DNA of 34,365 nt from Pseudomonadota bacterium. Its GTDB lineage: Bacteria > Pseudomonadota > Alphaproteobacteria > Acetobacterales > Acetobacteraceae. The notes below the pieces were generated by a model. That model saw only the letters and a list, made by a program, of their open reading frames with translations, made no database searches and was not told where the DNA came from. Both the position numbers and the translations under genes were made by a program. Location of the stretch: contig JAKBAV010000014.1 of NCBI GenBank assembly GCA_021826225.1, positions 1 through 34,365 of the forward strand, given 5' to 3'. Shown here piece by piece: positions 13,264 to 30,252 of this stretch (its first letter is position 1; every line of letters starts with the position of its first letter).

Positions 13264-13279
13264 TTGTGCCAGCCTCGTT

Positions 13280-14617: not shown

Positions 14618-14619
14618 TG

Positions 14620-15333: not shown

Positions 15334-16199
15334 GCCGCGCGCTCCCAGAAATAAACCTGCCCCGGCTCGGGCTCGAACAGATGCGCCGCCTCGATGCCCG
15401 GCAAATCCGCCAGCGCCCGGTATTCCGAACCGAAGGCGACATAATCAGCGGTCTCGGCCATCACCGCCGGTTTGCATGCTACCGGATCACGCAGCACGCC
15501 GAACCCGTTCTCGGTGCCGACCACAAAGGTGTAAAAACCATCCAGCCGGTCCAACGCATTGGTCAGCGCCTCGTTCAGTTTTTTACCCTCGCGCAGCTGG
15601 TGCGAAAGATACCCGGCGGCGACTTCGGTATCGTTCTGTGTGGCGAAGGTAATCCCTTCGCGCATCAGCACGCGCCGCACATCGTTATGATTGGAGAGCG
15701 AACCATTATGCACCAGGCACTGGTCAGCGCCGGTGGAAAATGGATGCGCGCCGGCAGTGGTGACGGCGGATTCGGTCGCCATGCGCGTATGCCCGATGGC
15801 ATGGCTGCCGGACATTTTCTCCAACCCGAAACGCTTCGTCACCGCATCCGGCAGGCCAACACCCTTGAACAATTCCATGCGCGCGCCGGTCGCGACGATG
15901 GTGATTTCAGGCCGGGCTGCGAGCGCCGCCCGCACCTCCGCCTCGCGCGCCACGGGGAAGGTGATCACGGCATGGTCGTCATGCGCCGTGCAGCTCAGCT
16001 CCAGCCCTTGCGGCAGGTTGAAGCCGCCGGCCGAGCGGAGGGTGTATTTAAGCTGCCCCGGCGCCCCGGCGCCGTAAATCGCGAATCCCGCGGAGTCCGG
16101 CCCGCGATCCGTGAGCGCTGAAAGCATGCCGCTCAGCATCCGGCCGAGCGCGGGCTCCAGGCTGGGGTTTTTCAGGAACAGTCCGGCAATGCCACACAT
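15330..16199 (-). CDS. glxB: class II glutamine amidotransferase (GlxB/MgsA type)
   Basis: The protein has 289 residues. The N-terminus MCGIAGL places the nucleophilic Cys at position 2, as in Ntn-type amidotransferases. GHTRMATES and HNGSLSNHNDVRR match the glutamine-binding stretches of the PurF/GltB amidotransferase domain. It would hydrolyse glutamine and pass ammonia to the FMN subunit GlxD. The start follows AGAGGAG about ten bases upstream, and a promoter lies just before that. It is the first gene of the glxBCD-glnT operon. Confidence 0.9.
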   Translation of the reverse strand: MCGIAGLFLKNPSLEPALGRMLSGMLSALTDRGPDSAGFAIYGAGAPGQLKYTLRSAGGFNLPQGLELSCTAHDDHAVITFPVAREAEVRAALAARPEITIVATGARMELFKGVGLPDAVTKRFGLEKMSGSHAIGHTRMATESAVTTAGAHPFSTGADQCLVHNGSLSNHNDVRRVLMREGITFATQNDTEVAAGYLSHQLREGKKLNEALTNALDRLDGFYTFVVGTENGFGVLRDPVACKPAVMAETADYVAFGSEYRALADLPGIEAAHLFEPEPGQVYFWERAA

Positions 16200-16228
16200 A
16201 GTCTCGTCAACTCCTCTGTCCTGGCCCG

Positions 16229-16257
16229 AGGATAACGGGGCCGGAAGGAGGCGTCAA
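16229..16257 (-). promoter_or_regulatory. sigma-70-type promoter of the glxBCD-glnT operon
   Basis: Reading the minus strand, TTGACG (16257-16252) is followed after exactly 17 bases by TATCCT (16234-16229). This matches the -35 at five of six positions and the -10 at four of six. The glxB ATG is 30 bases downstream, with an AGAGGAG ribosome site between. The AT-rich stretch to the right (16261-16296) includes a weak AAGAAT/ATTCTT inverted repeat that may end the upstream SMP-30 transcript. Confidence 0.6.
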
Positions 16258-16306
16258 CTGAAAAGAATAAACAATTCTTACCAGGAAATTTTTTAAAGCA
16301 GCCCGT

Positions 16307-17245
16307 TTACATGGCGGAGCGCTGATGCAGCAGCTTGAGACCGGGGCGCGGCCACGCCACCTGCAGCAGCCTGCCGGTGCCGGAAAGGGTGATGTAGGCG
16401 GTCCGCATATCATCGCCGCCGAAGCATATATTCGTGCAATAGCCCTCCGGCGCCGCGTGGAATTCCAGAACCTCTCCGGCGGGGGAAAACACGGTGATGC
16501 CGCCATTCACCAGCGTCGCCACGCAAATATTTCCATTGGCCTCAACCGCCATGGAATCGAAACGTTGGTACCCGCCCGGCCCGCCCATGAATCTGCCGCC
16601 ATTGGGCGAGGGCCAGGGCTGCTTGCCCAGCTCTCCCGGCCCGGCCACCGGATAGGCCCAGAGCCGTCCCGTCTCCGTCTCCGATACGTAGAGCGTGCCA
16701 CCATCCGGAGACAGACCGATGCCGTTGGGCGTGATCAGCGGAAAGGCAACCTCCGTGATGAACGCACCATCGATCGTCGCATAATAGACCGCGCCACGAT
16801 CCATCAGCCTGTCATAGCTTTTGCCGTGATCGGTGAACCAGAAACCACCATTACCGTCGAATACGATATCGTTCGGGCCTTTCAGCGTCACCTCCCCGCA
16901 GGCGGCATAAAGCACCTCGACGGCACCGGTTACGAGGTCCACACGCTGGATGCTGCCGCCGGTATAATAATCCGCCCGGCCATGCGGGCGGGCATAACCA
17001 TCCGCCGCATGGATCCAGTTGAAGCCGCCATTATTGCACACATAGCACTTGCCATCCGGCCCGATCGCAGCACCATTCGGGCCGCCGCCAAGCTCGGCCA
17101 CGACCGATTTCACGCCATCGGCCGCCACCCGGATCAACCGCGCGCCCTCGATCTCGACCACCAGCACCGCACCATCCGCCAGGGCGACGGGTCCTTCCGG
17201 AAACTTCAATCCTTGCGTGACATCGCGTCCCTCAAGCTTCATCAT
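16307..17245 (-). CDS. SMP-30/gluconolactonase family protein
   Basis: This is a six-bladed propeller protein of 312 residues. The family metal-ligand segments are all present: FPEGPVAL (Glu), LKGPNDIVFD (Asn) and ITPNGIGLSPDG (Asn and Asp). Members hydrolyse lactones of sugars or other hydroxy acids with a divalent metal. The start is at the tandem ATGATG (17245/17242) with AAGGGAAG just upstream; a TTG at 17263 is less likely. It overlaps the preceding dehydrogenase gene by 14 bases and is the last gene of the maoC-led operon. A lactonase here suggests that a pathway intermediate can form a lactone. Confidence 0.85.
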   Translation of the reverse strand: MMKLEGRDVTQGLKFPEGPVALADGAVLVVEIEGARLIRVAADGVKSVVAELGGGPNGAAIGPDGKCYVCNNGGFNWIHAADGYARPHGRADYYTGGSIQRVDLVTGAVEVLYAACGEVTLKGPNDIVFDGNGGFWFTDHGKSYDRLMDRGAVYYATIDGAFITEVAFPLITPNGIGLSPDGGTLYVSETETGRLWAYPVAGPGELGKQPWPSPNGGRFMGGPGGYQRFDSMAVEANGNICVATLVNGGITVFSPAGEVLEFHAAPEGYCTNICFGGDDMRTAYITLSGTGRLLQVAWPRPGLKLLHQRSAM

Positions 17246-18143
17246 GCGTGCTTCCCTTTTCAATCAGTTCGATGATGGCCGGAAAATATTTATCGCCTAT
17301 CCCCTGCGCCACCGCCTCACGGTAATATTGCAGAACGAGTTGCGGCAGCTTTGGCGCCACACCGTAATTTTCCGCCAGCTCGATGCAATAGCCCATATCC
17401 TTGAGCACATAATGCGCGGGAAAGGCGCGTTCCGGGAAATGGCGCGCCGCCATGGCCTTCAGCCCATGATTACGCAGCGCGAAGCTGTCGCCCGAGCCCT
17501 TCGAGACAGCGCTGATCAGAGTCTCCGGTGCAACACCGGCGCGTTCGGCGACCACCATCATTTCCGCCAGCGCGGCGACATGCTCGAACAGCAGCGTGTT
17601 GTTGATGAGCTTCACGACCTGGCCACATCCGGCCTCGCCACAGCGTGTGACATCGCTGCCCATATAGCGCAGCAACGGCTCGATCCTGGCGAATAATGCC
17701 TCCTCCGCACCCACCATGATGCTCAGCGTGCCGGCCTGCGCCGCTTCGCGCGTGCGCGCCACCGGGGCATCGGCAAAGCGCAATCCAGCCTCCTCCGCTC
17801 GCGCACTGGCGGCCTGCGCATCGGCCACGCTGGTGGTGCTGAGGTCGATGATGATGGTACCAGGCCGCGCGGCACCGGCGATCCCGCCTTCGCCGAAACA
17901 AACCTCATGCACCTGCTTTCCACCAGGCAGGGACAACAAAACAATATCGGCCACGGCCGCAAGTTCGGTCACAGAACCTGCGATTTTCGCGCCCGCCCGG
18001 CCTGCTTCCGCAAGGGCAGCGGCGTTCATATCGAATGCATGCACGGCGGCGGGATGTTTGGTCACGACATTGCGGCACATCGGCCCACCCATGACACCGA
18101 GACCAATGAAACCGAGAACCGGAAAATCCTGTGCCATGACCAT
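17232..18143 (-). CDS. NAD(P)-dependent beta-hydroxyacid dehydrogenase (3-hydroxyisobutyrate dehydrogenase family)
   Basis: The protein has about 303 residues. The N-terminal Rossmann motif is GFIGLGVMGGPM. The substrate-binding stretch reads DAPVARTREAAQAGTL, where 3-hydroxyisobutyrate dehydrogenases usually have DAPVSGG, and the catalytic Lys lies in GCGQVVKLINN (about Lys178). The Arg-containing variant of the substrate loop suggests a hydroxyacid other than 3-hydroxyisobutyrate. The start ATG shares one base with the stop of the upstream SDR gene (TGATG); an in-frame ATG at 18137 is the alternative. It belongs to the maoC-caiB-caiB-SDR-dehydrogenase-lactonase operon. Confidence 0.87.
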   Translation of the reverse strand: MVMAQDFPVLGFIGLGVMGGPMCRNVVTKHPAAVHAFDMNAAALAEAGRAGAKIAGSVTELAAVADIVLLSLPGGKQVHEVCFGEGGIAGAARPGTIIIDLSTTSVADAQAASARAEEAGLRFADAPVARTREAAQAGTLSIMVGAEEALFARIEPLLRYMGSDVTRCGEAGCGQVVKLINNTLLFEHVAALAEMMVVAERAGVAPETLISAVSKGSGDSFALRNHGLKAMAARHFPERAFPAHYVLKDMGYCIELAENYGVAPKLPQLVLQYYREAVAQGIGDKYFPAIIELIEKGSTHDEA

Positions 18144-18895
18144 CAATCCATCAACATGCCACCGTTGACGTCCAGCGTCGTCCCGGTGATCCAGTTCGAT
18201 GCCGGCGAGGCGAGAAACAGAACCGCCTGCGCAATATCCTCGGGCTGGCCGAAGCGCCCCAGCGGCACGCTGTTATGGGCCGAAGGCGGAGCGCGCTCCG
18301 TCACATTCTGCCACATCGGCGTTTCCACCGGGCCGGGCGCAATGATATTGGCATACACGCCCTTCGGCGCACCGGCTTTGGCGGCCCATTTGATGATACC
18401 ATGCACAGCCGATTTGGCGGCGACATAGGCCGGGCCTGAAGCCACGCCGCCGATCTTGGCGGCAATGGAGCCCAGCGCCACGATCTTGCCGCCGCCCTGC
18501 CCGCACATCAGCGGAAAAATCCGCCGCACCGGATTGACCACACCCATCACATTCACGCGCCAGATGCTCTCCCACTCCTCATCGCTGGCATCGGCGATCG
18601 GCGTGTTGGCGATGGTGCCGGCGCAGAGGACAAGAATGTCGATCCTGCCGAATTCAGCGCAAATCTCCGTCACCAGCCCATCCGTTCGTGGCCGGCTGGT
18701 CACGTCGTATGGCATGAAACGGATGCCAGGCCATTCCGTGAAAGCATCGGTGGCATCAAGATCAGTCGCAATCACCGTGGCGCCGGCGGCCGCAAGGGTT
18801 CTCACCACCTCCCGTCCGATACCGCCCGCCGCTCCCGTAACGAGCGCCACCTGACCATCGAGCCTGGCCGCCGCGCTGATACGACTATTCGTCAT
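18143..18895 (-). CDS. short-chain dehydrogenase/reductase (classical, FabG-like)
   Basis: The protein has 250 residues and a complete classical SDR signature: TGAAGGIG (residues 20-27), a CAGT stretch in place of NNAG, catalytic Ser143 (ALGS), Tyr157 and Lys161 (YVAAK), the APGPVETPM segment and the GTTLDVNGG ending. It probably oxidises a hydroxyacyl-CoA or hydroxyacid intermediate. The start has a strong GGAGG seven bases upstream. It lies 27 bases after the second CoA-transferase gene and overlaps the next gene at TGATG. Confidence 0.88.
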   Translation of the reverse strand: MTNSRISAAARLDGQVALVTGAAGGIGREVVRTLAAAGATVIATDLDATDAFTEWPGIRFMPYDVTSRPRTDGLVTEICAEFGRIDILVLCAGTIANTPIADASDEEWESIWRVNVMGVVNPVRRIFPLMCGQGGGKIVALGSIAAKIGGVASGPAYVAAKSAVHGIIKWAAKAGAPKGVYANIIAPGPVETPMWQNVTERAPPSAHNSVPLGRFGQPEDIAQAVLFLASPASNWITGTTLDVNGGMLMD

Positions 18896-18922
18896 TTTCG
18901 TTCCTCCACGTCTCGTCAGGCC

Positions 18923-20119
18923 TTAGAATATAACCTGATCGTCCTGTAATTCCTGCCGCTCGGCTGTGCTCATGCCAAGCAACTCGCCATAGACATATTC
19001 CTCATGCTCACCAAGTTTCGGCGTACCGCGCGCAATGCCGATATCCCCGCCCTTGGAAAGCCGCACGGGCACCCCCACCGCGGCCCGTACGCGGCCATCG
19101 GGCTCGCGCACATTCACAATCGCGTTGCGTTCACGCAAATGGGCATCGGCGGTGATTTCCCGCGCGGTCCAGGATTCATGCGCGGCGATCCCGGCCTCCT
19201 GCAGCATGGCCTCAACCACCGCACCCGGCAATGTCGCGGTCCATACCGCAACGATATCATCAAGCGCAACCCGGTTTTCATGCCGCGCCGCTTGCGTGGC
19301 GAAACGAGGATCGCCGGCCAACCCGGGCGTACCCATTATAGAGGCGAGGCGCTGCCATTCCACATCGGTTTCAACCGCGATGGAAACCCAACGATCATCT
19401 CCCGCCGCTTTGTATACTCCATGCGGTGCCATGCGCGGATGCTCATTACCCGTGCGCGTCACAGCCTGCCCCGCGGCGGCAAGCAGCAGCGCTTCCCCCA
19501 GCAGGGAGGAGGAAACTTCACGCGCCGCGACATCGACAAGGCATCCAAGCCCCGTGGCGCGGCGACGATGCAAGGCTGCCAGCACGGCCACCGCCGCATT
19601 CATCCCCACCGTATGGTCCATCACATGGCGCATCTCAACCGGCGGCCCATCTGCATAGCCAGTCAACGCGCCAAGCCCGCCCCAGGCCCCGAACAAAGGC
19701 GCGTAACCGGCGAAATGAGAATCCGGCCCGCTCTGCCCGGACGATGAAACCGCGAGCAGAATGATGTCAGACTTCACCGCCCGCAGCGCCTCGTAACCCA
19801 GGCCCAGCCGGGTCAGCACACCGGGGCGGAAACTCTCCGCCGCGACATCGGATATCGCAACCAGCCGCTTGGCCAGAGCGATGCCCTGGGGATGCTTGAA
19901 GTTGATACGGACAGATAACTTGTTTGATGCGACCTGATCGAATGTCGCCGGTCCCATGCGGCCATAAACCGGGTGTGGCTTACGAAAAATATCCGGCCGC
20001 TGCGCGCTTTCCACCTTGATGCATTCGGCGCCAAGCTGCGAGAGCATATGCGTGCAGAACGGCCCGGCATTATGCACGGTAAAATCGGCGATACGGACCC
20101 CCTCAAGCGGCTTGACCAT
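18923..20119 (-). CDS. class III CoA-transferase (CaiB/BaiF family), catalytic Asp present
   Basis: The protein has 398 residues, the normal length. It starts with MVKPLEGVRIADFT, the usual entry of the family, at ATG 20119, one base after the stop of the preceding CoA-transferase gene. GPFCTHMLSQLGAECIKVE and NKLSVRINFKHPQG match the CoA-binding fold. The catalytic Asp that forms the acyl anhydride in formyl-CoA transferase aligns with Asp168 in RHVMDHTVGM. An open frame extends upstream to 20242 inside the neighbouring gene and is not used. The substrate is unknown. Direct adjacency to an Asp-less paralogue suggests a heteromeric enzyme. Confidence 0.87.
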   Translation of the reverse strand: MVKPLEGVRIADFTVHNAGPFCTHMLSQLGAECIKVESAQRPDIFRKPHPVYGRMGPATFDQVASNKLSVRINFKHPQGIALAKRLVAISDVAAESFRPGVLTRLGLGYEALRAVKSDIILLAVSSSGQSGPDSHFAGYAPLFGAWGGLGALTGYADGPPVEMRHVMDHTVGMNAAVAVLAALHRRRATGLGCLVDVAAREVSSSLLGEALLLAAAGQAVTRTGNEHPRMAPHGVYKAAGDDRWVSIAVETDVEWQRLASIMGTPGLAGDPRFATQAARHENRVALDDIVAVWTATLPGAVVEAMLQEAGIAAHESWTAREITADAHLRERNAIVNVREPDGRVRAAVGVPVRLSKGGDIGIARGTPKLGEHEEYVYGELLGMSTAERQELQDDQVIF

Positions 20120-20120
20120 A

Positions 20121-21254
20121 TCAGGCCGTCTCCCGTGCGGGATCATACGTGCCCAGTTGCGGCGGGCCACCACGTAATTGCAGCGGCGCGGCGCCGAACC
20201 GGAAAGGTGCCGCCAGCATGTCCAGGACCAGGCCATCGGCAATCATCACCGGGGAAAACAGGCCGCGTTCACGTTCATGCGGATCATGCAGCACCTGCGC
20301 CGGGGTGGCGTATTCCGCCAGCGGTACGCCCGCCGCCTGGCCTTTTGCAACAATATCGGCAACCAAACGCTGCTTTGCCCAGGCGCGAATATGCGCGTTT
20401 ATGGCAGGCCCCCGCCGGCTGCGCTCCAGCGCATCGGAAAGTGCGGGGTCCAGTGCCCAATCCGGCCGCCCGAGCAGTTCAACCAGCGCCGTCCATTGTC
20501 TTTGTTCAAGTGTCAGAAGTTCGACATAGCCATCCGCGCAGGGCAACACGCCGCCGTAACGGAATGACCGCTCCACGCGATGCTCGACCGCACCATCGCC
20601 ATAACGCTGTATAGCGAAGGCACCCACCGCCAAAGCGGCATCCTGGCAGGAAATATCAACATACTGCCCGCCGGTTCCAGGCCGCGCCCAAACCGCCGCA
20701 AGCGCGCCGAGCGCCGCCGCGATGCCGCCCTGCAATGCCGCAAAATGCCCATAAATTTTCACCGGCGGACGTTCCGGAAACATTTCAACAGACAACCCAT
20801 TCGGCAGCAGATTACCCTCGCCTGAAGCATGCTGCAGGTTAATCTCCGTCCCCTTCCAGCCGGCCTTCGGCCCCGAGGCACCGAATGGCAGCACGGAAAC
20901 ATGGATCAGATTTGGATGCATGCGCGCAATGGCCGCATCATCGATGCCCATGGCCGCGCGCCCGGCTACTGGCGTATCATCGATGAAAATATCCGCTTCG
21001 CTCAGAATCGCCGTATCGCGACCATCCCATACCAGGCTGCGCATGCCCGCGGTATGGTAGGCGAACAAGGCGCTGACATCCGTGCCCGCGATAAACGGCG
21101 GTTCCCAGCGCAATTGCGATCCCGCCGGCGGTTCCAGCAGAATCATCTCGGCACCCATGGTGCCGAGCAGCCGGCCGGCATAGGCCGCCGCGACACCGGA
21201 TGCGCGCACGACCACACGTAGATCACTCAGCGGCGTGTTCGCGGCATCCGGCAT
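20121..21254 (-). CDS. class III CoA-transferase paralogue lacking the catalytic Asp
   Basis: The protein has 377 residues with CaiB/BaiF fold features: LLGTMGAEMILLEPPAGSQ, SLVWDGRD, a GPKAGWKGTEI segment and TGGQYVDISCQDA. Where the family has the catalytic Asp before the GM/GG helix, this protein reads IYGHFAALQGG, so the Asp is replaced (about Ala173 by my alignment). It is sandwiched between maoC (10-base gap) and the Asp-containing paralogue (1-base gap). A structural or CoA-binding partner role is inferred; an independent enzyme with a shifted residue is possible. Confidence 0.83.
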   Translation of the reverse strand: MPDAANTPLSDLRVVVRASGVAAAYAGRLLGTMGAEMILLEPPAGSQLRWEPPFIAGTDVSALFAYHTAGMRSLVWDGRDTAILSEADIFIDDTPVAGRAAMGIDDAAIARMHPNLIHVSVLPFGASGPKAGWKGTEINLQHASGEGNLLPNGLSVEMFPERPPVKIYGHFAALQGGIAAALGALAAVWARPGTGGQYVDISCQDAALAVGAFAIQRYGDGAVEHRVERSFRYGGVLPCADGYVELLTLEQRQWTALVELLGRPDWALDPALSDALERSRRGPAINAHIRAWAKQRLVADIVAKGQAAGVPLAEYATPAQVLHDPHERERGLFSPVMIADGLVLDMLAAPFRFGAAPLQLRGGPPQLGTYDPARETA

Positions 21255-21264
21255 GGCTTAGCCC

Positions 21265-22464
21265 TTAGCGAACGACAGGGAGATCGAGGTCTAGCCTGGA
21301 GCCATCGAAGAATACCGGAATATCCACCCGGCGTGACGGCATGATCACGGTCGCGAGACCCGGCGTCGTCAACTCGCCGCGCTGGTTCTCGCCGCGGATT
21401 TCAATATCGACCAGCGCATGGCCATCCTTGATGTATTTATTGGTCACCTTGCCGCGGGCCCAGGTGCAGTCGCCCATTGTGTTGAAGCGGCGCATCTGCG
21501 TGCGAACGCGTTTCAGGAATGCCGCATCGCCCATCCAATTGGTCACCAGGCTGGCCATCCAGGCGGAGCGCTGCGGGCCGTAATCGTATACGCCGGGCAC
21601 GCCAACCTCCTTGGCGGTGGATTCACGATGATGCCCGATGCCGGTATACTCAATACCGCCGCCCGCCTCCGGATTACGAAAGAAATGCCCCGGGTGCTTC
21701 ACGGCATTTTTGAAAATCACGCCATGGGTATGGCCCCGGCCGCAGCCAACGAGGAAGCCCATCGTATCCATCAGCGAGAGTGGACCACGGACAATCTCGG
21801 GCAGCTCATCGCCAATCGCTACATCTTCCCAATAGCGCACATGCGCGCTCGTCATGCGCTCTTCCTCGCGCAGGATCGTCTCATCGATATGCGCGAACTC
21901 CTCCGGCGTATATTCATGCGTCTTGATGTCGCTATACTTGCCGGCCTCGCGTGCCGCCTTGCGCTCATGGCGCGTGCAGGTGCCAAGCGTGCGCGCCACA
22001 AGCTCGCCGCGCTGGTTGGCGTAGCTTGCCTCGACATATTGCAGCACGAGCTTGCCCGAAAACTGGCTCTCCTTCACATCCACGCCGACGACGCGCTCGA
22101 TCGCCGTAATCCGGTCGCCCGGGCGGACATGGCGGAAAAGTTCCCAGTCATTGCCGGCATAAAAACCATGCACACCGGGCAGGCCCCAGCGCGTGCGGCC
22201 GACCCAGCCGAACGCCATCGGGAACATCGGGTGCGCCAGCATACTGCCATGGCGGGTCAGGCGGCCATGCTCAAGGTCGCGGTATAGCGGGTTGAGATCG
22301 CCGATGCCGTTGCAGAAATTGCGGATCGTATCCTCCGTGGCATCCTGCAGATACGGGCCTTCCGGGCGCAGCTGCAGACCGATCATCTTCTCGGCGGCGG
22401 CAATGGCCTCATCGGTGATCTTGCCTTCGGCGGGCGCCGCGCCGACTTCGTTTTCCGTGCTCAT
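21265..22464 (-). CDS. MaoC-type (double hot-dog) hydratase/dehydratase
   Basis: The protein has 399 residues with two hot-dog regions: an N-terminal FAS1-like dehydratase half (FCNGIGDLNPLYRD, then HPMFPMAFG and HVRPGDRI) and a C-terminal half with a bulky insert, ending in WARGKVTNKYI...GENQRGELTTPG. It likely hydrates an unsaturated acyl-CoA or dehydrates a hydroxyacyl-CoA. It is the first gene of the six-gene operon. The ATG has AGGAG seven bases upstream, and the promoter at 22520-22549 carries a GntR-type palindrome. The exact substrate is not recognisable. Confidence 0.83.
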   Translation of the reverse strand: MSTENEVGAAPAEGKITDEAIAAAEKMIGLQLRPEGPYLQDATEDTIRNFCNGIGDLNPLYRDLEHGRLTRHGSMLAHPMFPMAFGWVGRTRWGLPGVHGFYAGNDWELFRHVRPGDRITAIERVVGVDVKESQFSGKLVLQYVEASYANQRGELVARTLGTCTRHERKAAREAGKYSDIKTHEYTPEEFAHIDETILREEERMTSAHVRYWEDVAIGDELPEIVRGPLSLMDTMGFLVGCGRGHTHGVIFKNAVKHPGHFFRNPEAGGGIEYTGIGHHRESTAKEVGVPGVYDYGPQRSAWMASLVTNWMGDAAFLKRVRTQMRRFNTMGDCTWARGKVTNKYIKDGHALVDIEIRGENQRGELTTPGLATVIMPSRRVDIPVFFDGSRLDLDLPVVR

Positions 22465-22519
22465 GGTCTTGCTCCTAAGGGTTGCGCGGCGCGGCTGTAT
22501 CGGCTGTACGCGGCGCTAA

Positions 22520-22549
22520 TGGATAATGCATTATGTATTTTTATGTCAA
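22520..22549 (-). promoter_or_regulatory. promoter of the maoC-led operon with overlapping ATAATGCATTAT palindrome
   Basis: On the minus strand a perfect -35 TTGACA (22549-22544) precedes, after 18 bases, a -10-like TATCCA (22525-22520). The perfect 12-base palindrome ATAATGCATTAT (22523-22534) fills the downstream part of the spacer and touches the -10. The same palindrome is found at the promoters near 25111-25187. It is proposed as the operator of the GntR regulator encoded at 23144-23851. Confidence 0.7.
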
Positions 22550-22568
22550 CCCGCCTGGCATGGAGCAC

Positions 22569-23147
22569 TCAGGAAAAGTCAAATGCGGTGCTCTTTACAA
22601 TAGCGGCATACCGCCCCAGGCAGGCAATCGCATGCATGTGCTCATCCGCCGTGGCGCCAGCGCAGCAATCTTCAAAAATCACGCATTCATAATCGCGATC
22701 ATGCCCATCGCGTGCGCCGGAATGTACCACGCCATTGGTGGAAACACCGCATAAAATCAGCCGTTCAATGCCGTTAGCGCGCAGGATCGGCTCCAGCGAC
22801 GTGCCATAAAACGGGCTGACACGATGCTTGATGATATCGAAATCCCCTTCGCGCGGGGCGAGGGCGGAATGCACCTGCGTGCCCGCCGTACCGAGCTGAA
22901 ATAATTTCCGCGTCCGCGCGCCGGAGAAAATCGGCGAGGCCGGTGGGCATTCGCGGTAATCCGGTGAAAACCCGACGCGGACATAACCAATGGCGATACC
23001 GGCCGCGCGGCAGGCGGCAATTGCCGCTGCCGTATTTTCCAGCACGCCGCGCTCGGCCACCTGCACGCCATAACCCGCGGCATTCGGCCCGGCCGGGCTC
23101 ACAATATCATTCATCATGTCCATGACGAGAAACATCGTCTTCTTCAT
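22569..23147 (-). CDS. isochorismatase-fold hydrolase without the nucleophilic Cys
   Basis: The protein has 192 residues and the isochorismatase/cysteine hydrolase fold. The N-terminal Asp (Asp10 in FLVMDMMND) and the Lys in IIKHRVSPFYGT (Lys107) of the catalytic triad are visible. The third position, Cys in TxxCV of nicotinamidase-like enzymes, reads STNGVV, with Val140 at the Cys site. True isochorismatases also lack this Cys, so activity of a different kind is possible. The ATG overlaps the GntR stop (ATGA), so it is co-transcribed with the regulator and a CoA-transferase. Confidence 0.82.
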   Translation of the reverse strand: MKKTMFLVMDMMNDIVSPAGPNAAGYGVQVAERGVLENTAAAIAACRAAGIAIGYVRVGFSPDYRECPPASPIFSGARTRKLFQLGTAGTQVHSALAPREGDFDIIKHRVSPFYGTSLEPILRANGIERLILCGVSTNGVVHSGARDGHDRDYECVIFEDCCAGATADEHMHAIACLGRYAAIVKSTAFDFS

Positions 23148-23851
23148 GCATCTTCTCCTTGCGAAACCTGTTCAGAATTTTTCAGGGCCTGCTGCAATTC
23201 CAGCCAGCCGGATTCAATATGCCGGCGCGTCGCCAGCATCGCCGCCCCGGTATCGCCGGCGATGAACGCATCCAGCAATTCATGGTGTTCAGCCGCGGCG
23301 CGCCCCACCCGGCCCGCGAGCTTGTTAATCAGGTCGAACGGATAGCGCGCCCATAATATCTGTACGAAATGCAGGGTCTGCGGCATGCCCGCGAGTTCGA
23401 ACGTACGCTGATGGAAGCGATAATTCGCCGCCCGCGCCTCCTCATTTCTGCCGGTGGCGACAGCTTTTTCAAACTCCATGGCCAGCCGCCGCAGGTCATC
23501 GACATCAGCGGTGGCGGCTCGCCCCACAGCCCCGCGCACAAGCTGCGTTTCCAGCAGAATACGCAAATTCAGCATCTCGTTATCGGCGGTTATATCGAAC
23601 GGCGCCACCGTGGCGCCCCGGTATGAATCGCCCGCTACATAGCCTTCCGCCGCGAGCAGTTTCAGCGCCTCGCGCACCGGGGTGATGCTGGTATTCAGCA
23701 GTACCGCGATCTCCTGCTGCTTCAGCCGCGCCCCGCGCGCAAAACGTCCGGCAATAATGCCTTCACGAAGAAAATCGGCGACCTGCTCCTCTTTAGTCCG
23801 GTATTCCATGCGCTGTGCGATTCCTTTGGCGGGAGGGGGCTGCATCACCAT
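23144..23851 (-). CDS. GntR family transcriptional regulator, FCD-domain subgroup
   Basis: The protein has 235 residues. A winged helix-turn-helix spans roughly residues 15-80 (EEQVADFLREGIIAGRF, RLKQQEIAVLL, TPVREALKLLAAEGYV). An all-helical FCD ligand domain follows, with the His residues expected for metal binding in YRFHQRTFELAG, AEHHELLDAF and TRRHIESG. FCD regulators usually sense carboxylic acids. It sits between a CoA-transferase gene (32-base gap) and the isochorismatase-like gene (ATGA overlap). Palindromes at the three promoters of this island are its likely operators, implying autoregulation. ATG 23809 is an alternative start. Confidence 0.9.
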   Translation of the reverse strand: MVMQPPPAKGIAQRMEYRTKEEQVADFLREGIIAGRFARGARLKQQEIAVLLNTSITPVREALKLLAAEGYVAGDSYRGATVAPFDITADNEMLNLRILLETQLVRGAVGRAATADVDDLRRLAMEFEKAVATGRNEEARAANYRFHQRTFELAGMPQTLHFVQILWARYPFDLINKLAGRVGRAAAEHHELLDAFIAGDTGAAMLATRRHIESGWLELQQALKNSEQVSQGEDA

Positions 23852-23883
23852 CTACCACGCATGGACCGCGCCCTCCACAGCGC

Positions 23884-25095
23884 TCACGCCTCGGCTTTGC
23901 GCACCGGCGCCCAGCTCAAATAGCCCGGTTTTTCCGACGCCACAGCACCCTGTTGCACAAGCCTGGCACATTGGCTTTCATCAAGGCCGAACCTGTGCAA
24001 AACCTCCATGGTATGCTGCCCGAGCGCCGGCGGCGGCAGGTTTGGCGCGGCCGCCGCGCCACCGGGAAATTCAGGCACCGTAAAATCCAGCCCGCCAAAT
24101 GCAAAATCGCGGAGCTTGCCCGGCACGCGGGCTTGCGGCGCTTCCAGCACGCGCTCCAACGGCAGCACTTCGGTAAAGCCGACACCAGCGGCGCCAAGCC
24201 GCGCCTCGGCCTCGCCACAATCCAGCGCCGCCATCGCCTCCCGCACGGCCGCCTCGACCTCCTCGCGGCGCTTCTTGCGGTTTCGCAATATCGCCAGTTC
24301 CGGATCATCGCCAAGCCCCAACGCCTGCGATAATTTGAGCCAATGCGCATCGGTCAGCACCAGCAGATACAGCCAGCGCCCGTCACGCGTCTGATAGGCG
24401 CCATAGCCCGGCATGCTGAACTCGCCGCCGCCTTCACGCTCGGGCCGACCCAGAAGCTGCATCTTCAACTGCACGCCGGCAAGATCGCGCCCGGCCACAT
24501 GCAGGCCCGTTTCATACAAGCCGATCTCGATCCGCCGCGCCTCCGGCGCCGGCGCCAGCAACGCCGCCATGATGCGGATAACTGCATAAGTGCCGGCAAA
24601 CTGGTCGTGATAGGAGGGCCCCAAGCGGCTCGGCCGGCCATTGATTACATGATCCGCCATGACTCCGGTAGCGGCTTCGGCAACCGGATTCGTTGCGAGA
24701 TCGTCCTCCTTGGGCCCAGCCGCATAACCACGGATATGGCAATAGATCAGCGCCGGGTTGATCGCCGCGGCATCCTCCGCCGTCACCCCAAGCTTGCGCG
24801 CGGCGCCAGGCGCCAGGTTGTGGATCAGCACATCCGCCCGGGCGAGCAGCACGCGGAACACCGCCGCCCCTTCCGGCGATGCCAGATCGATCGCGACACT
24901 TTTTTTGCTGTGATTATACGCGAGAAACGTGCCGCTCGGGCCACCGCGCACCAGAGCCCGGGTGGTATCGCCGGTCGGCGGCTCAACCTTTATAACCTCG
25001 GCGCCGAGCTGGGCGAGAATATGCGTGGCGAAGGGTGCCGCGACCATGGTGCCAAGCTCAATCACAAGACGGCCGGCGAGGGGGAGATGTGTCAT
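23884..25095 (-). CDS. class III CoA-transferase (CaiB/BaiF family), catalytic Asp present
   Basis: The protein has 403 residues from ATG 25095 (MTHLPLAGRLVIELG), which has AAGG five bases upstream and lies 16 bases after the predicted transcription start. ATG 25107 would leave almost no leader. APFATHILAQLGAEVIKVEPP and the NHSKKSVAIDL segment are typical. The catalytic Asp aligns with Asp164 in SYHDQFAGTY. It is the first gene of the CoA-transferase/GntR/isochorismatase-like operon and is likely to activate the inducing acid or a later intermediate by CoA transfer. It differs from the pair at 18923-21254, so the island has two separate CoA-transfer activities. Confidence 0.88.
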   Translation of the reverse strand: MTHLPLAGRLVIELGTMVAAPFATHILAQLGAEVIKVEPPTGDTTRALVRGGPSGTFLAYNHSKKSVAIDLASPEGAAVFRVLLARADVLIHNLAPGAARKLGVTAEDAAAINPALIYCHIRGYAAGPKEDDLATNPVAEAATGVMADHVINGRPSRLGPSYHDQFAGTYAVIRIMAALLAPAPEARRIEIGLYETGLHVAGRDLAGVQLKMQLLGRPEREGGGEFSMPGYGAYQTRDGRWLYLLVLTDAHWLKLSQALGLGDDPELAILRNRKKRREEVEAAVREAMAALDCGEAEARLGAAGVGFTEVLPLERVLEAPQARVPGKLRDFAFGGLDFTVPEFPGGAAAAPNLPPPALGQHTMEVLHRFGLDESQCARLVQQGAVASEKPGYLSWAPVRKAEA

Positions 25096-25110
25096 GCGCG
25101 CCTTCATCAA

Positions 25111-25147
25111 TATAATGCATTATATGGCGGCAACCCACCCCCAGCAA
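25111..25147 (-). promoter_or_regulatory. promoter of the CoA-transferase/gntR operon with 14-base operator-like palindrome
   Basis: On the minus strand TTGCTG (25147-25142) is followed after exactly 17 bases by a perfect TATAAT (25124-25119). The perfect palindrome TATAATGCATTATA (25111-25124) covers the -10. Transcription would start near 25112, leaving about 17 bases to ATG 25095. A repressor bound here would block RNA polymerase directly. The site matches those at 22523-22534 and 25174-25187. Confidence 0.75.
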
Positions 25148-25150
25148 GAC

Positions 25151-25187
25151 CTGACCAACCCAAAATCCGCGATTAAAATGCATTGTA
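25151..25187 (+). promoter_or_regulatory. promoter of the HTD2/MaoC-like gene with operator-like near-palindrome
   Basis: CTGACC (25151-25156), a 17-base spacer and TAAAAT (25174-25179) make a plausible -35/-10 pair on the plus strand. TAAAATGCATTGTA (25174-25187) differs from the 14-base palindrome at 25111-25124 in two positions and again begins at the -10. This promoter is back-to-back with the one at 25111-25147, their -35 boxes being three bases apart. Confidence 0.65.
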
Positions 25188-25238
25188 TGTAGGCTAGATC
25201 CAGGCTACTGAGCGGCGCAACACGCGAGGAGCAGACGC

Positions 25239-26063
25239 ATGAGCGAGGATTTTTCCCCATGGGCCGGACGTCGCGAAACCGCCACGGATATATTGGAGCC
25301 CGCCCGTACCAACGCCCTGCGCGCGGCATTAGGCGAAGCCGCGCCCCTATCTCTGGGCGAACCGCTCCCGCTGCTGCATCACTGGCTGTATTTCTGGGAA
25401 GTTAAACCGCCCGAAGCCCTGGGCTTTGACGGCCACCCCGCCCGTGGCGGTTTTCTCCCCCCCATCGCCCTGCCCCGCCGCATGTGGGCCGGCGGCCGCC
25501 TCAGCTTTCACCACCCACTTCGGCTCGGCGAAACCGTGACCAAAACCTCGACAATATTGAAGGTCGAGGCCAAATCCGGACGCAGCGGCCATCTCGTCTT
25601 CGTCACCATCCGCCATGAACTTGCCGGCGCCCAGGGCCTCGCCGTTACCGAGGAGCAGGATATCGTCTATCGCGAGGCCGCGGCCCCCGGCGCCATCCTC
25701 GCCGCCGGCGGCAACCCAGCCCCCGCCGCTGCCTGGCAACACGCCATCATGCCGGACCCGGTTCTGCTGTTTCGTTATTCGGCCCTCACCATGAACGGCC
25801 ATCGCATCCATTACGACCGGCCCTACGCCATGAACGATGAAGCCTATCCCGGCCTCGTCGTGCACGGCCCGCTGCAGGCGACGCTGTTGGCCGGACTCGC
25901 CGCCACCCACCGTGAAACTCCCATCAGCACCTTCAGCTTCCGCGGCCTGGCCCCGGCTTTTGACGGTGCCGCGATGCATGTCTGCGGCCAGCCCACGCAA
26001 ACCGGCGCGGAGCTCTGGACCGAGCAGGCCGGGGTGCGAAACATGACCGCCACCATAACCTAA
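25239..26063 (+). CDS. HTD2/MaoC-like hydratase (mesaconyl-C4-CoA/itaconyl-CoA hydratase-like)
   Basis: The protein has 274 residues. The N-terminal half carries the FAS1-like dehydratase region (PPEALGFDGHPARGGFLPP, RMWAGGRLSFHHPLRLGE). The C-terminal half has RYSALTMNGHRIHYDRPYA and YPGLVVHGPLQATLL, matching the MaoC active-site signature with a catalytic His in the NxHxIHYD stretch. Close families hydrate mesaconyl-C4-CoA or itaconyl-CoA, hence the tentative label. The ATG has GAGGAG upstream. It is divergent from the CoA-transferase/gntR operon and its 3' end overlaps the convergent SDR gene by 4 bases. Confidence 0.84.
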   Translation: MSEDFSPWAGRRETATDILEPARTNALRAALGEAAPLSLGEPLPLLHHWLYFWEVKPPEALGFDGHPARGGFLPPIALPRRMWAGGRLSFHHPLRLGETVTKTSTILKVEAKSGRSGHLVFVTIRHELAGAQGLAVTEEQDIVYREAAAPGAILAAGGNPAPAAAWQHAIMPDPVLLFRYSALTMNGHRIHYDRPYAMNDEAYPGLVVHGPLQATLLAGLAATHRETPISTFSFRGLAPAFDGAAMHVCGQPTQTGAELWTEQAGVRNMTATIT

Positions 26064-26914
26064 ACCGGCTGCCACAGCGGCGCGCCGCGCTCCGCCCGCA
26101 GGCTCGGGATCACCCGCCCGTCGATGTCGGTAATGCCGTATTCCTGCGCCAGCTCGGCATTGATGAAGGTGCCGCCGGTTTTTTCCATAATCTTCGCATC
26201 CGCCAGCAATGCCGCCATGATGCGCCCGGGGAATTCCGGCGAGCTTCCGGCATTGCTGTGCAGCTGTGCCGCCATGCCCGGAATGGTCTTCAAATTCTCC
26301 GTCGCCCGCTCGGTAAAGGTAAAGCCCTGCCACAACGAGACCGAGGCCACATTATGCGGCTTCAACTCAATCGCCATGTCCCGCGCCATGCGGTCCACCG
26401 CCGTCTTGGCGGTGCCAAAAATCGTGCTGTAGGTATAATTCACCCCGACATAGCCCGAGAGCCCGATAATCAGCCCGGATTTCTGCGGCACCATTATTTT
26501 CGCCGCATGCCAGGCGGCAACGAAACCGGCGCGCACGCCGATATCGAAAATCTCCCAGTTGGAAAGCGGCTTTTCCCAAAACGAGCCGGGCTGCGTCATC
26601 TCATGCGGCAAGGCGATGGCATTGTTCACCAACAGGTCCAGCCGCCCCTGCTCGGCTTTGATCCGCGCGAACAGGGCCGCCACCTGCGCGTCATCACCAT
26701 GGTCCACCGCCACGGCAATGCCTTTGCCGCCGCGCGCATCCACCAACGCCGCCGTCTCACCTACCGTGCCGGGCAGCGCATGCTCACCGGCGTTCACGGT
26801 ACGGCCGGTGACATAAACCGTAGCCCCCTGCTCGCCCAGAGCGCAGGCAATACCCTTGCCGATGCCCCGGCTCGCCCCGGTAACGAGCACCACCCGGCCG
26901 CTGAGCCTACCCAC
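26060..26914 (-). CDS. SDR family protein, DHRS1-like, with Phe in place of the catalytic Tyr
   Basis: The protein has 284 residues. TGASRGIGKGIA (residues 12-23) and NNAI mark the cofactor fold. The usual YxxxK active site reads FGTAK (Phe166, Lys170), with a Ser at 153 at the expected spacing, so the catalytic Tyr is replaced; the codon is TTT. The sequence otherwise resembles DHRS1-type SDRs (VSLWQGF segment). The start is GTG 26914, inside the end of the SnoaL-like gene (8-base overlap), with only a weak ribosome site. It may be catalytically altered or inactive. Confidence 0.83.
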   Translation of the reverse strand: MGRLSGRVVLVTGASRGIGKGIACALGEQGATVYVTGRTVNAGEHALPGTVGETAALVDARGGKGIAVAVDHGDDAQVAALFARIKAEQGRLDLLVNNAIALPHEMTQPGSFWEKPLSNWEIFDIGVRAGFVAAWHAAKIMVPQKSGLIIGLSGYVGVNYTYSTIFGTAKTAVDRMARDMAIELKPHNVASVSLWQGFTFTERATENLKTIPGMAAQLHSNAGSSPEFPGRIMAALLADAKIMEKTGGTFINAELAQEYGITDIDGRVIPSLRAERGAPLWQPV

Positions 26915-27440
26915 GGGCGAAGAATGTTTCGCTGAAATCGCCGTGCGCCCGGCCGGAGAAATATTCGGCGCTGAACGGCAGCCCCATCACACCAGCTGAG
27001 AAATCATTGGCGACGCCGAAATCATGATACCAGTCATACAGCATCGTGCGGCTGGCGATGGCCCATTTGCCACCGCGTTTTTCCAGCACATCCAGATACC
27101 GCCCGCCGACCACCGTATCATGATGCGCCGTGCCGAAATCCACGCGATGATAGGAGATCACCTGCGTCTCGACCTTCGCGGTTCCACCCTCAAGCTGGAT
27201 GAAACTCTGCCCCAGCACATGCTGCGTGCAGGGTATGGCCGGCGAACCAGGCACCACCCAGGCAAGATATGCGGCGAAATCGCCTTTGAACACGCCATAA
27301 TCGGTCACCGAATCCGGCCAATAGGCGGCGCTGATCATCGCGGCGTCGCGCCGGTCCTCGCCACGCGCCAAGCCCTCGATGCATTTGCGGATGCCGCGCT
27401 CATCCAGCAGCGCTTGCAGTCCATCATCACTATCGGTCAC
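26907..27440 (-). CDS. SnoaL-like / NTF2-fold protein
   Basis: The protein has 177 residues and a cone-shaped alpha+beta fold of the SnoaL_4 type. It has an N-terminal helix with RGIRKCIEGLARGEDRRD, then YWPDSVTDYGVFKGDFAAYL, a His in CTQHVLGQ and a late GKWAIASRTMLYDWYHD strand. Family members are dehydratases, isomerases or ring hydroxylase small subunits; the conserved Asp/His pair seen here is compatible with a lyase or isomerase. It precedes the SDR gene, which it overlaps by 8 bases, so the two form a small operon facing the HTD2-like gene. Function unassigned. Confidence 0.8.
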   Translation of the reverse strand: MTDSDDGLQALLDERGIRKCIEGLARGEDRRDAAMISAAYWPDSVTDYGVFKGDFAAYLAWVVPGSPAIPCTQHVLGQSFIQLEGGTAKVETQVISYHRVDFGTAHHDTVVGGRYLDVLEKRGGKWAIASRTMLYDWYHDFGVANDFSAGVMGLPFSAEYFSGRAHGDFSETFFARG

Positions 27441-27671: not shown

Positions 27672-29114
27672 CTACTCCGCCGCCATCGGCTTGGCATTGC
27701 GCTCTTTCAGGAACGCGAAAAATTCCACACCCTCGCGCAGCCGGCGCACCAGCATCTGCCGCGAGCGCATCATCTCGTTGAGAATCGAGAGTATCTTCGA
27801 GGGCCGGAAATAGAATTGCCGGTACATCGTCTCGACCGAGGCAAAAATCTCTTCATGGCTGAGATGCGGATAATGCAGCGGCGCAATCTGCACGCCATGC
27901 TCATCAATCAGCTCGGCATGCTCAATGTCGAGCCAGCCCTCCTTGACCGCCTGATTATACAGGAAGGTACCGGGATAGGGTGCCGCCAGCGAAACCTGAA
28001 TGGTATGCGGATTGATCTCCTTGGCGAAGGCGATCGTCTCCTTCAGCGTATTCTGGTCCTCGCCGGGCAGGCCGACGATGAAGGTGCCGTGGATTTTGAT
28101 GCCAAGCTTATGGCAATCTGCGGTGAACTGCTTCGCCACCTCGATCCGCATGCCTTTTTTGATATTGTGCAGAATCTGCTGATTGCCGCTCTCATAGCCG
28201 ACGAGGAGCAGGCGCAGCCCGTTCTCCTTCAGAACTTTCAGCGTCTTATACGGCACATTGGCCTTGGCGTTGCACGACCAGGTGACGCCGAGCTTGCCCA
28301 GTTCGATCGCGATCTCCTCGGCGCGCGGCAGATTATCGGTGAACGTATCATCGTCGAACATGAATTCCTCGACCTGCGGGAACAGCTCCTTCGCCCGCTT
28401 GATCTCGGCGATCACGTTGCCCACCGAGCGCGTACGGTATTTATGCCCGCCCACGGTCTGCGGCCACAGGCAGAAGGTGCAATGCGACTTGCAGCCGCGC
28501 CCCGTATAGATCGAGATATAAGGGTGTTTGAGATAGCCGATGAAATAATCCTCGATCCGCAGATGCTTGGCATAGACATCCACCACGAAGGGCAGCTCAT
28601 CCATGTCCAACAGCAGCGGCCGGTCCTCGTTCTTGGTAAGCTGGCCGGCGGCCGCGCGCCACCAGATGCCCTGGACCTCGGCCAGCGGCTTGCCCTCGGC
28701 GATTTCCTTGATGGTGAAATCGAACTCATTGCCGCAGACGAAATCCAGCACTTTGGCACGCGCCAGCGATTCTTCGGGCTGCACCGCCACCTTCGCGCCG
28801 ATGAAGCCGACCAGCAGCGCCGGATTGCGTGCCTTAAACGCCTCGGCGACCTTCACGTCATTGCCGAATGATGGTGTTGAGGTATGGATAACCAGCAGTT
28901 GATGCGTGTCGGCATGCACCAGCACATCGTCCAGCGTAAGCTTCGCCGGGGGCGCATCGATGAGCGTGCTGTCTGGCAGCAGGGCCGCCGGCTGGGCCAG
29001 CCAGGTCGGGAACCAGAAGCTCTTGATCTCGCGCCGCGCCTGGTAACGCGAACCGGCGCCGCCATCGAAACCGTCGAAGGAGGGAGGCTGCAGGAACAGG
29101 GTTTTCATCGTCAT
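27672..29114 (-). CDS. hpnJ: hopanoid biosynthesis radical SAM protein HpnJ
   Basis: The protein has 480 residues. An N-terminal B12-binding-like domain (MKTLFLQPPSFDGFDGG, HTSTPSFGND) precedes a radical SAM domain with the CxxxCxxC cluster CKSHCTFC and the FDDDTFTDN stretch. HpnJ converts glucosaminyl bacteriohopanetetrol to the cyclitol ether in extended hopanoids, acting after HpnI and HpnK. The start at ATG 29114 has GAGAG seven bases upstream; ATG 29108 gives two residues fewer. It lies 16 bases after hpnI. No HpnK gene is seen in the window. Confidence 0.93.
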   Translation of the reverse strand: MTMKTLFLQPPSFDGFDGGAGSRYQARREIKSFWFPTWLAQPAALLPDSTLIDAPPAKLTLDDVLVHADTHQLLVIHTSTPSFGNDVKVAEAFKARNPALLVGFIGAKVAVQPEESLARAKVLDFVCGNEFDFTIKEIAEGKPLAEVQGIWWRAAAGQLTKNEDRPLLLDMDELPFVVDVYAKHLRIEDYFIGYLKHPYISIYTGRGCKSHCTFCLWPQTVGGHKYRTRSVGNVIAEIKRAKELFPQVEEFMFDDDTFTDNLPRAEEIAIELGKLGVTWSCNAKANVPYKTLKVLKENGLRLLLVGYESGNQQILHNIKKGMRIEVAKQFTADCHKLGIKIHGTFIVGLPGEDQNTLKETIAFAKEINPHTIQVSLAAPYPGTFLYNQAVKEGWLDIEHAELIDEHGVQIAPLHYPHLSHEEIFASVETMYRQFYFRPSKILSILNEMMRSRQMLVRRLREGVEFFAFLKERNAKPMAAE

Positions 29115-29130
29115 CTCATATCTCTCACAA

Positions 29131-30252
29131 CTAACGGAGCTTGCCCGCATCGGCTTGCATCATCTGGCCGCGCCAGTCCACCTGGCTGCCGGTAAAACTT
29201 GCAATATAGATGAGGGTCGAAAGCGAATCGCGCAACAGAAAAAGCCATGGGCCGCCGGAGGGCGGCAGGCGCAAGGCGGCATCGATACGCCGCGCCGCCA
29301 GCACACGCGCTACCAGCACCAAGACCATCAGCCCCCAGGACCACGGTTCCCCCGCCGAAAACAGCACGGCCAGGGCCGCCCAGAGCAGCGATATCTGCAA
29401 TACGGAAGCAGCATAGGCCGCCGGCACCAGCGCCCGGATGGTGCGGGCCCAGCGCAGCTCATGCCTGAACAGCGCCTCGAAATTCGCCTCCGGCACCGTG
29501 GTGGCGGGTACGAGTTGCGCCAGCTCCAGCCGGTAGCCGCGCGCCACGACCAGCCGGCCGAGCACCTGGTCATCGGCCAGATTATTCGCCACCGCCAGCA
29601 ACCCGCCAACCTCGGCCAGCACGGTCTTCGTCAGCGCCATGGTCACGCCCAGACAATCCCGGCGGCCAAGCCTGCGGGCCAGCAGCGCGCCGGGCAGGAA
29701 GGAGTGGTTGATCTGGTCGGCACCGAGCGCCGTGGCGAGTGCCGGCGTGCCCGGCAGCGCGGTGTAGAGCGAAGTCACGAGCCCCACTCCTTCGCCTTCC
29801 AGCGCCGCCACTACCCGGTCAAGAAAATACGGCGGCACATGGATATCGGCATCCGAGATCACCAGTATCTCATGCCGCGCCGCGCGCTGCATGTTGATCA
29901 GGTTGGAAACCTTGCGGTTGGTGCCATATTGTGTGGGGTCCACAACCAGCCTCACCGCGCGGCCGGGATAACGGGCGCGCAAGGTGGCGAGCACCTCCAG
30001 AACCGGATCGGCCGCATCCTGCACGCCGAATATCAGCTCATAATCCGGATAGTTCAGGAGAAAAAACGACTCCAGCGCCAGCCCGGTAAGCGGCTCGACG
30101 CCACAAAGCGGTTTGAGTACCGAAACCGGCGGCCGCGCCGCAGGTGCAGCCGCAGGCGTCGCGGCGAAACGCTGCACCAGCACGGCGCCCACAGCCTGCT
30201 GGCCGGCGCCGGCCAGCGCGCATAGCCCCGCAATTCCCGCCAGAAGCAGCAT
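29131..30252 (-). CDS. hpnI: hopanoid biosynthesis glycosyltransferase HpnI
   Basis: This family 2 glycosyltransferase has 373 residues, with an N-terminal hydrophobic helix, PPVSVLKPLCGVEPL, the nucleotide-sugar-binding DADIHVPP (DxD-like) motif, NNLADDQVLG and an HELRWARTIR segment equivalent to QxxRW, then hydrophobic helices near the C-terminus. It resembles ceramide glucosyltransferases. HpnI adds N-acetylglucosamine to bacteriohopanetetrol at the inner membrane. It sits between the HpnM-like gene and hpnJ in the same orientation. Confidence 0.92.
   Translation of the reverse strand: MLLLAGIAGLCALAGAGQQAVGAVLVQRFAATPAAAPAARPPVSVLKPLCGVEPLTGLALESFFLLNYPDYELIFGVQDAADPVLEVLATLRARYPGRAVRLVVDPTQYGTNRKVSNLINMQRAARHEILVISDADIHVPPYFLDRVVAALEGEGVGLVTSLYTALPGTPALATALGADQINHSFLPGALLARRLGRRDCLGVTMALTKTVLAEVGGLLAVANNLADDQVLGRLVVARGYRLELAQLVPATTVPEANFEALFRHELRWARTIRALVPAAYAASVLQISLLWAALAVLFSAGEPWSWGLMVLVLVARVLAARRIDAALRLPPSGGPWLFLLRDSLSTLIYIASFTGSQVDWRGQMMQADAGKLR

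Follow-up and report, generated by a model that had tools for sequence, protein, structure and literature searches.

A GntR/FCD regulator and a TGCA-centred palindrome predicted to form an autoregulated catabolic regulon in an Acetobacteraceae genome

The window analysed here, 34,365 nucleotides that make up one whole contig (JAKBAV010000014.1) of an Acetobacteraceae assembly (GCA_021826225.1; 2,593,087 bases in 161 contigs, 86.9% complete), carries a cluster of catabolic genes with a gene for a GntR family regulator, and three copies of a palindrome with the core AATGCATT at the promoters. With considerable confidence, the regulator, encoded on the minus strand at 23144-23851, is predicted to be the autorepressor of a small catabolic regulon that acts through this core. 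The protein of 235 amino acids consists of a GntR winged helix-turn-helix domain (Pfam PF00392, 6.3e-13) and a C-terminal FCD domain (PF07729, 3.5e-21), both above the gathering score, and belongs to the FCD subfamily of the GntR superfamily. The operon in which it is encoded starts with a gene for a family III CoA-transferase identified by profile search (23884-25110, minus strand), denoted CaiB408; this and similar names, such as CaiB377 and CaiB439, were coined in the present analysis. The third gene, for an isochorismatase-fold hydrolase (22569-23147, minus strand), overlaps gntR by 4 bp. The CaiB408 open reading frame opens with TTG at 25110, and an ATG at 25095 is preceded by AAGG and is likely to be the true start.

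The second operon, also on the minus strand, starts with the gene for a MaoC/FAS1-type hotdog dehydratase (MaoC399, 21265-22464), followed by the genes for two more family III CoA-transferases, CaiB377 (20121-21254) and CaiB439 (18923-20242), and, as identified by profile searches, an SDR oxidoreductase (18143-18895), a 3-hydroxyisobutyrate dehydrogenase-family protein (HIBDH, 17232-18146) and an SMP-30/gluconolactonase-family protein (SMP30, 16307-17263) that is the probable last gene of the operon. Divergently from CaiB408, the plus strand encodes an HTD2-like hotdog protein (25239-26063) with similarity to itaconyl-CoA hydratase (8khg, E 3e-72).

The sequence-only reading had described three palindromes, each at a readable promoter, and all six elements were found again. 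Operator 1 (ATAATGCATTAT, 22523-22534) precedes the operon from MaoC399 to SMP30 and lies between the -35 and -10 elements of its promoter (TTGACA-18-TATCCA, 22520-22549, minus strand). Operator 2, with the same sequence ATAATGCATTAT (25112-25123), covers the -10 element of the CoA-transferase/gntR/isochorismatase promoter (TTGCTG-17-TATAAT, 25119-25147, minus strand) and, with the start of CaiB408 at 25095, would lie 17-28 bp upstream of that gene. Operator 3 (AAAATGCATTGT, 25175-25186), a weaker copy with two mismatches located 63 bp from operator 2, precedes the HTD2-like gene and overlaps the -10 element of its promoter (CTGACC-17-TAAAAT, 25151-25179, plus strand). All three promoters were recovered by a script search, although the rules of a consensus scan list only the last one, so the first two are weaker readings.

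The exact 12-mer ATAATGCATTAT occurs in the own assembly at two places, both in the cluster of the window, whereas the reversed control does not occur at all; ANAATGCATTNT occurs at three places, which are the three operators (reversed control, 2). No close homologue of a cluster gene was found beside either of the one-mismatch places C17 and C71. Loose matching was tried and rejected as a test: at up to three mismatches, the window contains 11 matches to ATAATGCATTAT compared to 7.4 expected, so that such matches are uninformative and the sites are not separable from chance, and genome-wide and orthologue-based tests were used instead.

The orthologue-based test relied on 90 stretches from relatives, representing 88 distinct places, all selected by the presence of gntR: 80 of the 86 loci found when named genomes were scanned with the regulator's sequence, and ten stretches from Acetobacteraceae. 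The cluster genes recur in most of these stretches, often reordered, in sphingomonads, Bradyrhizobium/Azorhizobium, Burkholderiales and others; some stretches contain a close homologue of gntR alone. At up to one mismatch, ATAATGCATTAT has 115 matches in this set, compared to at most 2 for each of the 59 other permutations of the half-site. In a ranking of all 256 palindromic 8-mers that did not presuppose the motif, AATGCATT came first upstream of the orthologues of MaoC (41 of 53 regions), CaiB408 (28 of 33) and HTD2 (11 of 33), that is, before all three units in question. The sequence-only reading had named an observation that would speak against it, a palindrome common throughout the genome and not conserved at orthologous promoters; instead, the palindrome is confined to the cluster in its own genome and conserved at the orthologues, and comparative genomics supports that reading. 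For the remaining genes (isochorismatase, CaiB377, CaiB439 (n=8), SDR, HIBDH, SMP30 and GntR), AATGCATT is not among the top four palindromic 8-mers upstream.

In the regions immediately upstream of gntR, 18 of 82 contain a site within two mismatches. In many loci that lack such a site, gntR either follows CaiB408, whose promoter contains one, or is located behind other genes; in Bradyrhizobium and Azorhizobium, double sites directly precede gntR. Within a stretch of 3.7 kb surrounding gntR, approximate for a few loci, 44 of the 72 orthologue loci have a site with at most two mismatches; twenty stretches of 3.3-3.6 kb around more distant FCD paralogues contain none. Among the MaoC upstream regions, 12 lack a site at this threshold, and eight of these retain a partial match with 3-5 mismatches, located at -59 to -69 in six cases. 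Thus, operators are found at the regulator's own promoter and at target promoters and are conserved along with the orthologues, the arrangement of an autoregulated regulon at the level of sequence. Several observations weigh against this interpretation: 64 of the 82 GntR and 22 of the 33 HTD2 upstream regions lack a site within two mismatches, four of the 53 MaoC upstream regions contain nothing that resembles the palindrome, and gntR lacks a nearby site in the case of the five most distant homologues (41-47% identity, L038-L042; L-numbers denote stretches from relatives). L041 and L042 each contain one two-mismatch copy about 5.7 kb from gntR.

The alternative that fares best is that only operators 1 and 2 are genuine, whereas site 3 is a chance match and HTD2 is outside the regulon in this genome. 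Mismatch counts are in line with it: within two mismatches of ATAATGCATTAT, the own assembly has 33 places compared to 17 for the control, so operator 3 is not distinct by this measure alone, and AATGCATT was found upstream of just a third of the HTD2 orthologues. What singles out operator 3 is the intact AATGCATT core, which puts it among the mere three genomic occurrences of ANAATGCATTNT, its position over a -10 element and the sites before those HTD2 orthologues. Furthermore, paired sites between divergent HTD2 and CaiB408 genes recur in relatives L045, L049, L052 and L072, and a chance origin of site 3 appears unlikely. A helical phasing or loop model of such paired divergent sites was considered and abandoned: the distances in the relatives, 85 to 138 bp, fit no single phase.

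The whole genomes of 22 relatives, hand-picked from the 80 named loci, contain 35 exact 12-mer sites and no reversed-control sites. Of the 34 exact sites that fall in examined stretches, 27 lie 8-349 bp upstream of an orthologue of CaiB408, MaoC, HTD2 or gntR (upstream being defined as within 400 bp) and five are 1.4-2.1 kb from cluster genes. The other two (L156 4482 and L157 4870), which count against a motif tied to the cluster, have no close homologue of a cluster gene in the fetched stretch; these could be either further members of the regulon or chance matches. The genes can be dispersed: HTD2 is encoded on another contig in L155, the MaoC operon is 29 kb from the gntR operon in L159, and in L158 and L162, CaiB408/HTD2 pairs with an exact site are remote from gntR. 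The motif tracks the genes even when these are dispersed, as expected of the site of a trans-acting regulator.

Of the 38 genomes of the genus, five contain the gntR orthologue and seven the exact 12-mer, which is present in four of the five genomes with gntR compared to three of the 33 without it (Fisher p 0.002). A genus relative that has gntR but only a 37% identical MaoC homologue carries the one-mismatch site AAAATGCATTAT upstream of gntR. In another relative from the genus that lacks gntR (L126 around 1501; G312:C14:28764), the 12-mer centres a perfect palindrome of 30 bp. In a genome where MaoC is 62% identical but gntR has no match, the 16 kb fetched contain no site. Co-occurrence in a class-wide sample of 385 genomes was rejected as support and speaks against the assignment: the exact 12-mer is found in neither of the two other gntR carriers yet is present in 33 non-carriers. 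One of these carriers has degenerate sites at gntR (ACAATGCATTTT and ATTTTGCATTAT); the other one, with two gntR copies (52% and 47% identity), has no site in two 11-kb stretches, which likewise tells against the assignment.

Three of the 33 genomes of the class sample with the 12-mer but without gntR were inspected, and their clusters provide the best case for a second alternative, namely, that the palindrome serves as operator for a different regulator encoded elsewhere, for example, one of the TetR or BoxR type, with gntR as a mere neighbour. In two genomes of one other genus, the 12-mer lies just upstream of Rieske/KshA-like genes beside a TetR-like gene in a steroid-type cluster (L175 2143 and 4839; L177 4948) and, in L175, also upstream of an acyl-CoA ligase gene; one of the two TetR matches falls just below the Pfam cut-off. 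These sites apparently represent a separate conserved regulon that uses the same palindrome. In the third genome, which lacks this gntR, the 12-mer is found in a box (benzoyl-CoA) cluster at boxC and upstream of an open reading frame for a benzoate-CoA ligase (L178 5742-5763 and 10274), doubled at one of these places; this is possibly a BoxR-type operator. TGCA-centred palindromes are therefore probably read by other regulators as well. The letters of the palindrome alone do not name the protein because the same 12-mer is present at the TetR-associated and box clusters, and the assignment to GntR is one by association. Moreover, the relative loci were selected by gntR with no systematic search there for other regulators, and L077 has a LysR gene near gntR. 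Nevertheless, an operator of another regulator is quite improbable: sites directly precede gntR in Bradyrhizobium and Azorhizobium and are also present upstream of a gntR whose genome has no close maoC orthologue, motif and gntR co-occur within the genus, and gntR is the only regulator among the profiled window genes of 15330-27440. The palindrome is, then, very probably the binding site of the GntR regulator of the cluster.

The form of the operator was derived from a symmetrised profile of 78 distinct sites, which were selected for AATGCATT, so that the core is fixed by construction. Outside the core, A is found at position -6 in 92% of the sites, T at -5 in 63% and A or G at -8 in 96%, with weak preferences at -9 (T) and -10 (A). 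Farther out, at positions 15-28 counted from the centre, the information is only 0.00-0.20 bit, which makes the site an island of conservation. In betaproteobacteria, the common form is AGAATGCATTCT. A further alternative, that the palindromes are conserved simply as promoter elements in the form of symmetric -10 boxes (TATAAT...ATTATA), gains some credence from the overlap of two of the three sites with a -10. It is most improbable and was rejected as the whole explanation given that the conserved part is AATGCATT rather than TATAAT, that AGAATGCATTCT is no -10 element, that operator 1 lies in a spacer and that the 12-mer is found nowhere else in the 2.6 Mb assembly.

A second box, at a distance of exactly 7 bp, accompanies many operators. 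This was measured on four independent bases, the other two of the six box bases being part of the palindrome: among 96 flanks with AT at the operator's own positions +5/+6, the next four bases match GCAT at three or more positions in 34 cases and fully in 14, compared to 0-10 and 0-2 cases, respectively, at 13 other starts. Operator 1 has ATGCAT boxes with one mismatch exactly 7 bp off on both sides (ATGGAT and ATGTAT); operators 2 and 3 have no flanking box at this distance. For GntR families, additional half-site boxes have been described at 7-12 nt from the centre of the site (PMC4494728). The FadR-subfamily regulons described by Suvorova et al. 2015 in the same work resemble the present one in that they are conserved, with palindromic sites, double sites at divergent promoters and extra half-sites. 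Unlike the operator described here, the FadR-subfamily consensus contains TKGT/ACMA, whereas the conserved AATGCATT core has no GT...AC; BioR and NanR are named there as other departures from the consensus (PMC4494728).

Among published texts, the exact 12-mer ATAATGCATTAT was found only in papers that, judged by title and abstract, are unrelated, and a search for GntR together with ATGCATTAT produced no match. Matches for AATGCATT with operator and repressor were not on GntR, as far as titles and beginnings of abstracts tell, and no GntR paper containing the core was among the matches listed for GntR/FCD with AATGCATT. The names of the cluster genes gave no match for four of five terms. The predicted regulon and its operator are new, and the regulator is of a known kind.

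Residue conservation was assessed in 88 GntR homologues, in which Lys44, Gln45, Ser55, Thr57 and Pro58 are invariant and Ile56 is found in 87. In alignments with proteins of known structure, the position of Ile56 is occupied by Arg in 7xp0 and 3c7j, Phe in 3fms and Ile in 4p9f; hence Ile56 seems to stand where Arg45 of FadR and Atu1419 stands, and Gln45, in our own reading of the alignments, would be opposite Glu34. The arginine with which the FadR subfamily reads the G of GT is accordingly replaced by Ile56. In Atu1419, Arg45 reads the essential G of ATGTATACAT (PMC7797058). The lack of GT/AC in the operator would fit the lack of the arginine in the protein, a link that is limited by McbR, which also has Ile at this position. 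The putative metal ligands in the FCD domain are conserved in the orthologue set (Asn143 in 88/88, His147 in 88/88, His189 in 87/88, His211 in 87/87); in alignment A2, the first three are invariant and His211 is nearly so. By residue conservation alone, the protein thus falls in the FCD group with three histidines and Asp/Asn, and these four residues likely form a metal site, which suggests that the effector is of the carboxylate type. A metal site of three histidines and Asn/Asp has been described for Atu1419, TM0439 and PS5454 (PMC7797058).

VanR-group proteins are distinguished by an FCD domain that begins without an additional helix (PMC7797058); the sequence matches of the regulator include the VanR-group entries 3c7j, 4p9f, 3fms/3sxy and 6z74, a comparison made at the sequence level only. 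A VanR operator, ATTGGATCCAAT, met in a single literature listing, was set aside. The closest parallel is Atu1419 of Agrobacterium fabrum, an FCD regulator of the VanR group (matched through 6z74) with three histidines and Asn/Asp, for which three identical 10-bp palindromes, ATGTATACAT, are located on the -10 or in the spacer at its own and neighbouring catabolic promoters, the same arrangement as here (PMC7797058). Unlike Atu1419, with its GT/AC operator, Arg45 and hydroxycinnamates (PMC7797058), the present system combines a TGCA-centred AATGCATT with Ile56 and a different pathway. AlkR of Pseudomonas aeruginosa, a GntR/VanR protein (matched through 9isw) that is released by long-chain acyl-CoA, likewise has a palindromic operator over -10 regions, but this operator, ATTGTCAGACAAT, keeps GT...AC and AlkR regulates alkB2 (PMC12042122). 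McbR/YncC (4p9f) shares the SITPVREAL recognition-helix residues in the alignment and differs in that its binding has been reported at numerous AT-rich sites, with ATATAT as the motif (PMC13343897).

In the proposed model, a GntR dimer, or possibly a tetramer, would bind the TGCA-centred AATGCATT palindrome. With sites that overlap the -10 or the -35/-10 spacer of the maoC operon, the CoA-transferase/gntR/isochorismatase operon and HTD2, binding would block RNA polymerase at all three promoters. The repressor would then be released by a pathway intermediate, either a carboxylate or a CoA ester, which probably occupies the FCD metal site.

In the itaconate pathway (Ict/Ich/Ccl), a CoA-transferase, an itaconyl-CoA hydratase and a citramalyl-CoA lyase are found together. 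CaiB439 and CaiB377 match two different subunits of benzylsuccinate CoA-transferase 9fn0 (9fn0_B, the best structural match of CaiB439, at 2e-58, and 9fn0_A at 9e-20, respectively); CaiB377 scores better against 4ed9 (2e-27). The likeness to benzylsuccinate CoA-transferase and itaconyl-CoA hydratase suggests that the cluster enzymes likely form a pathway for a substituted succinate or itaconate. In relative L077, an HpcH/HpaI lyase encoded beside gntR matches 8khl at 8e-49; the genes profiled in the window cluster include no lyase of this kind.

In a 91-row tree of GntR proteins, the window protein belongs to a well-supported set of 34 rows, mostly from sphingomonads. Its nearest neighbour by tree path is a Sphingobium row, and the best identity, 78%, is with a Novosphingobium row. 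Three relatives from the genus, one of them titled Acidocella, group together inside the Novosphingobium group. The gntR system likely entered this genus at least twice, and the tree suggests that the cluster came from sphingomonads.

A broader interpretation can be offered only tentatively, as one that may well not hold in full: the orthologous group might use a separate GntR/FCD recognition code, with Gln45/Ile56 in place of Glu34/Arg45, for TGCA-centred operators, many of which would be read as overlapping palindromes in a fixed 7-bp register by two dimers or a tetramer, and might control an uncharacterised substituted succinate/itaconate pathway common to Alpha- and Betaproteobacteria. Such a code is testable because the operator deviates from the GntR consensus in a family that has also lost the hallmark arginine. 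The predicted regulon combines a defined operator and a candidate regulator with a set of genes that is conserved in many Alpha- and Betaproteobacteria, and delimits the genes of one catabolic pathway, including those dispersed over the chromosome or on other contigs. The operator, the repressor and the probable class of inducer provide a direct handle for finding the substrate of this pathway.

The cluster is adjoined at 11962-16199 by a block that encodes a type III glutamine synthetase, glutamate-synthase-like and GATase proteins. Just past the cluster on the other side, at 27672-30252, are the hopanoid genes hpnJ and hpnI.

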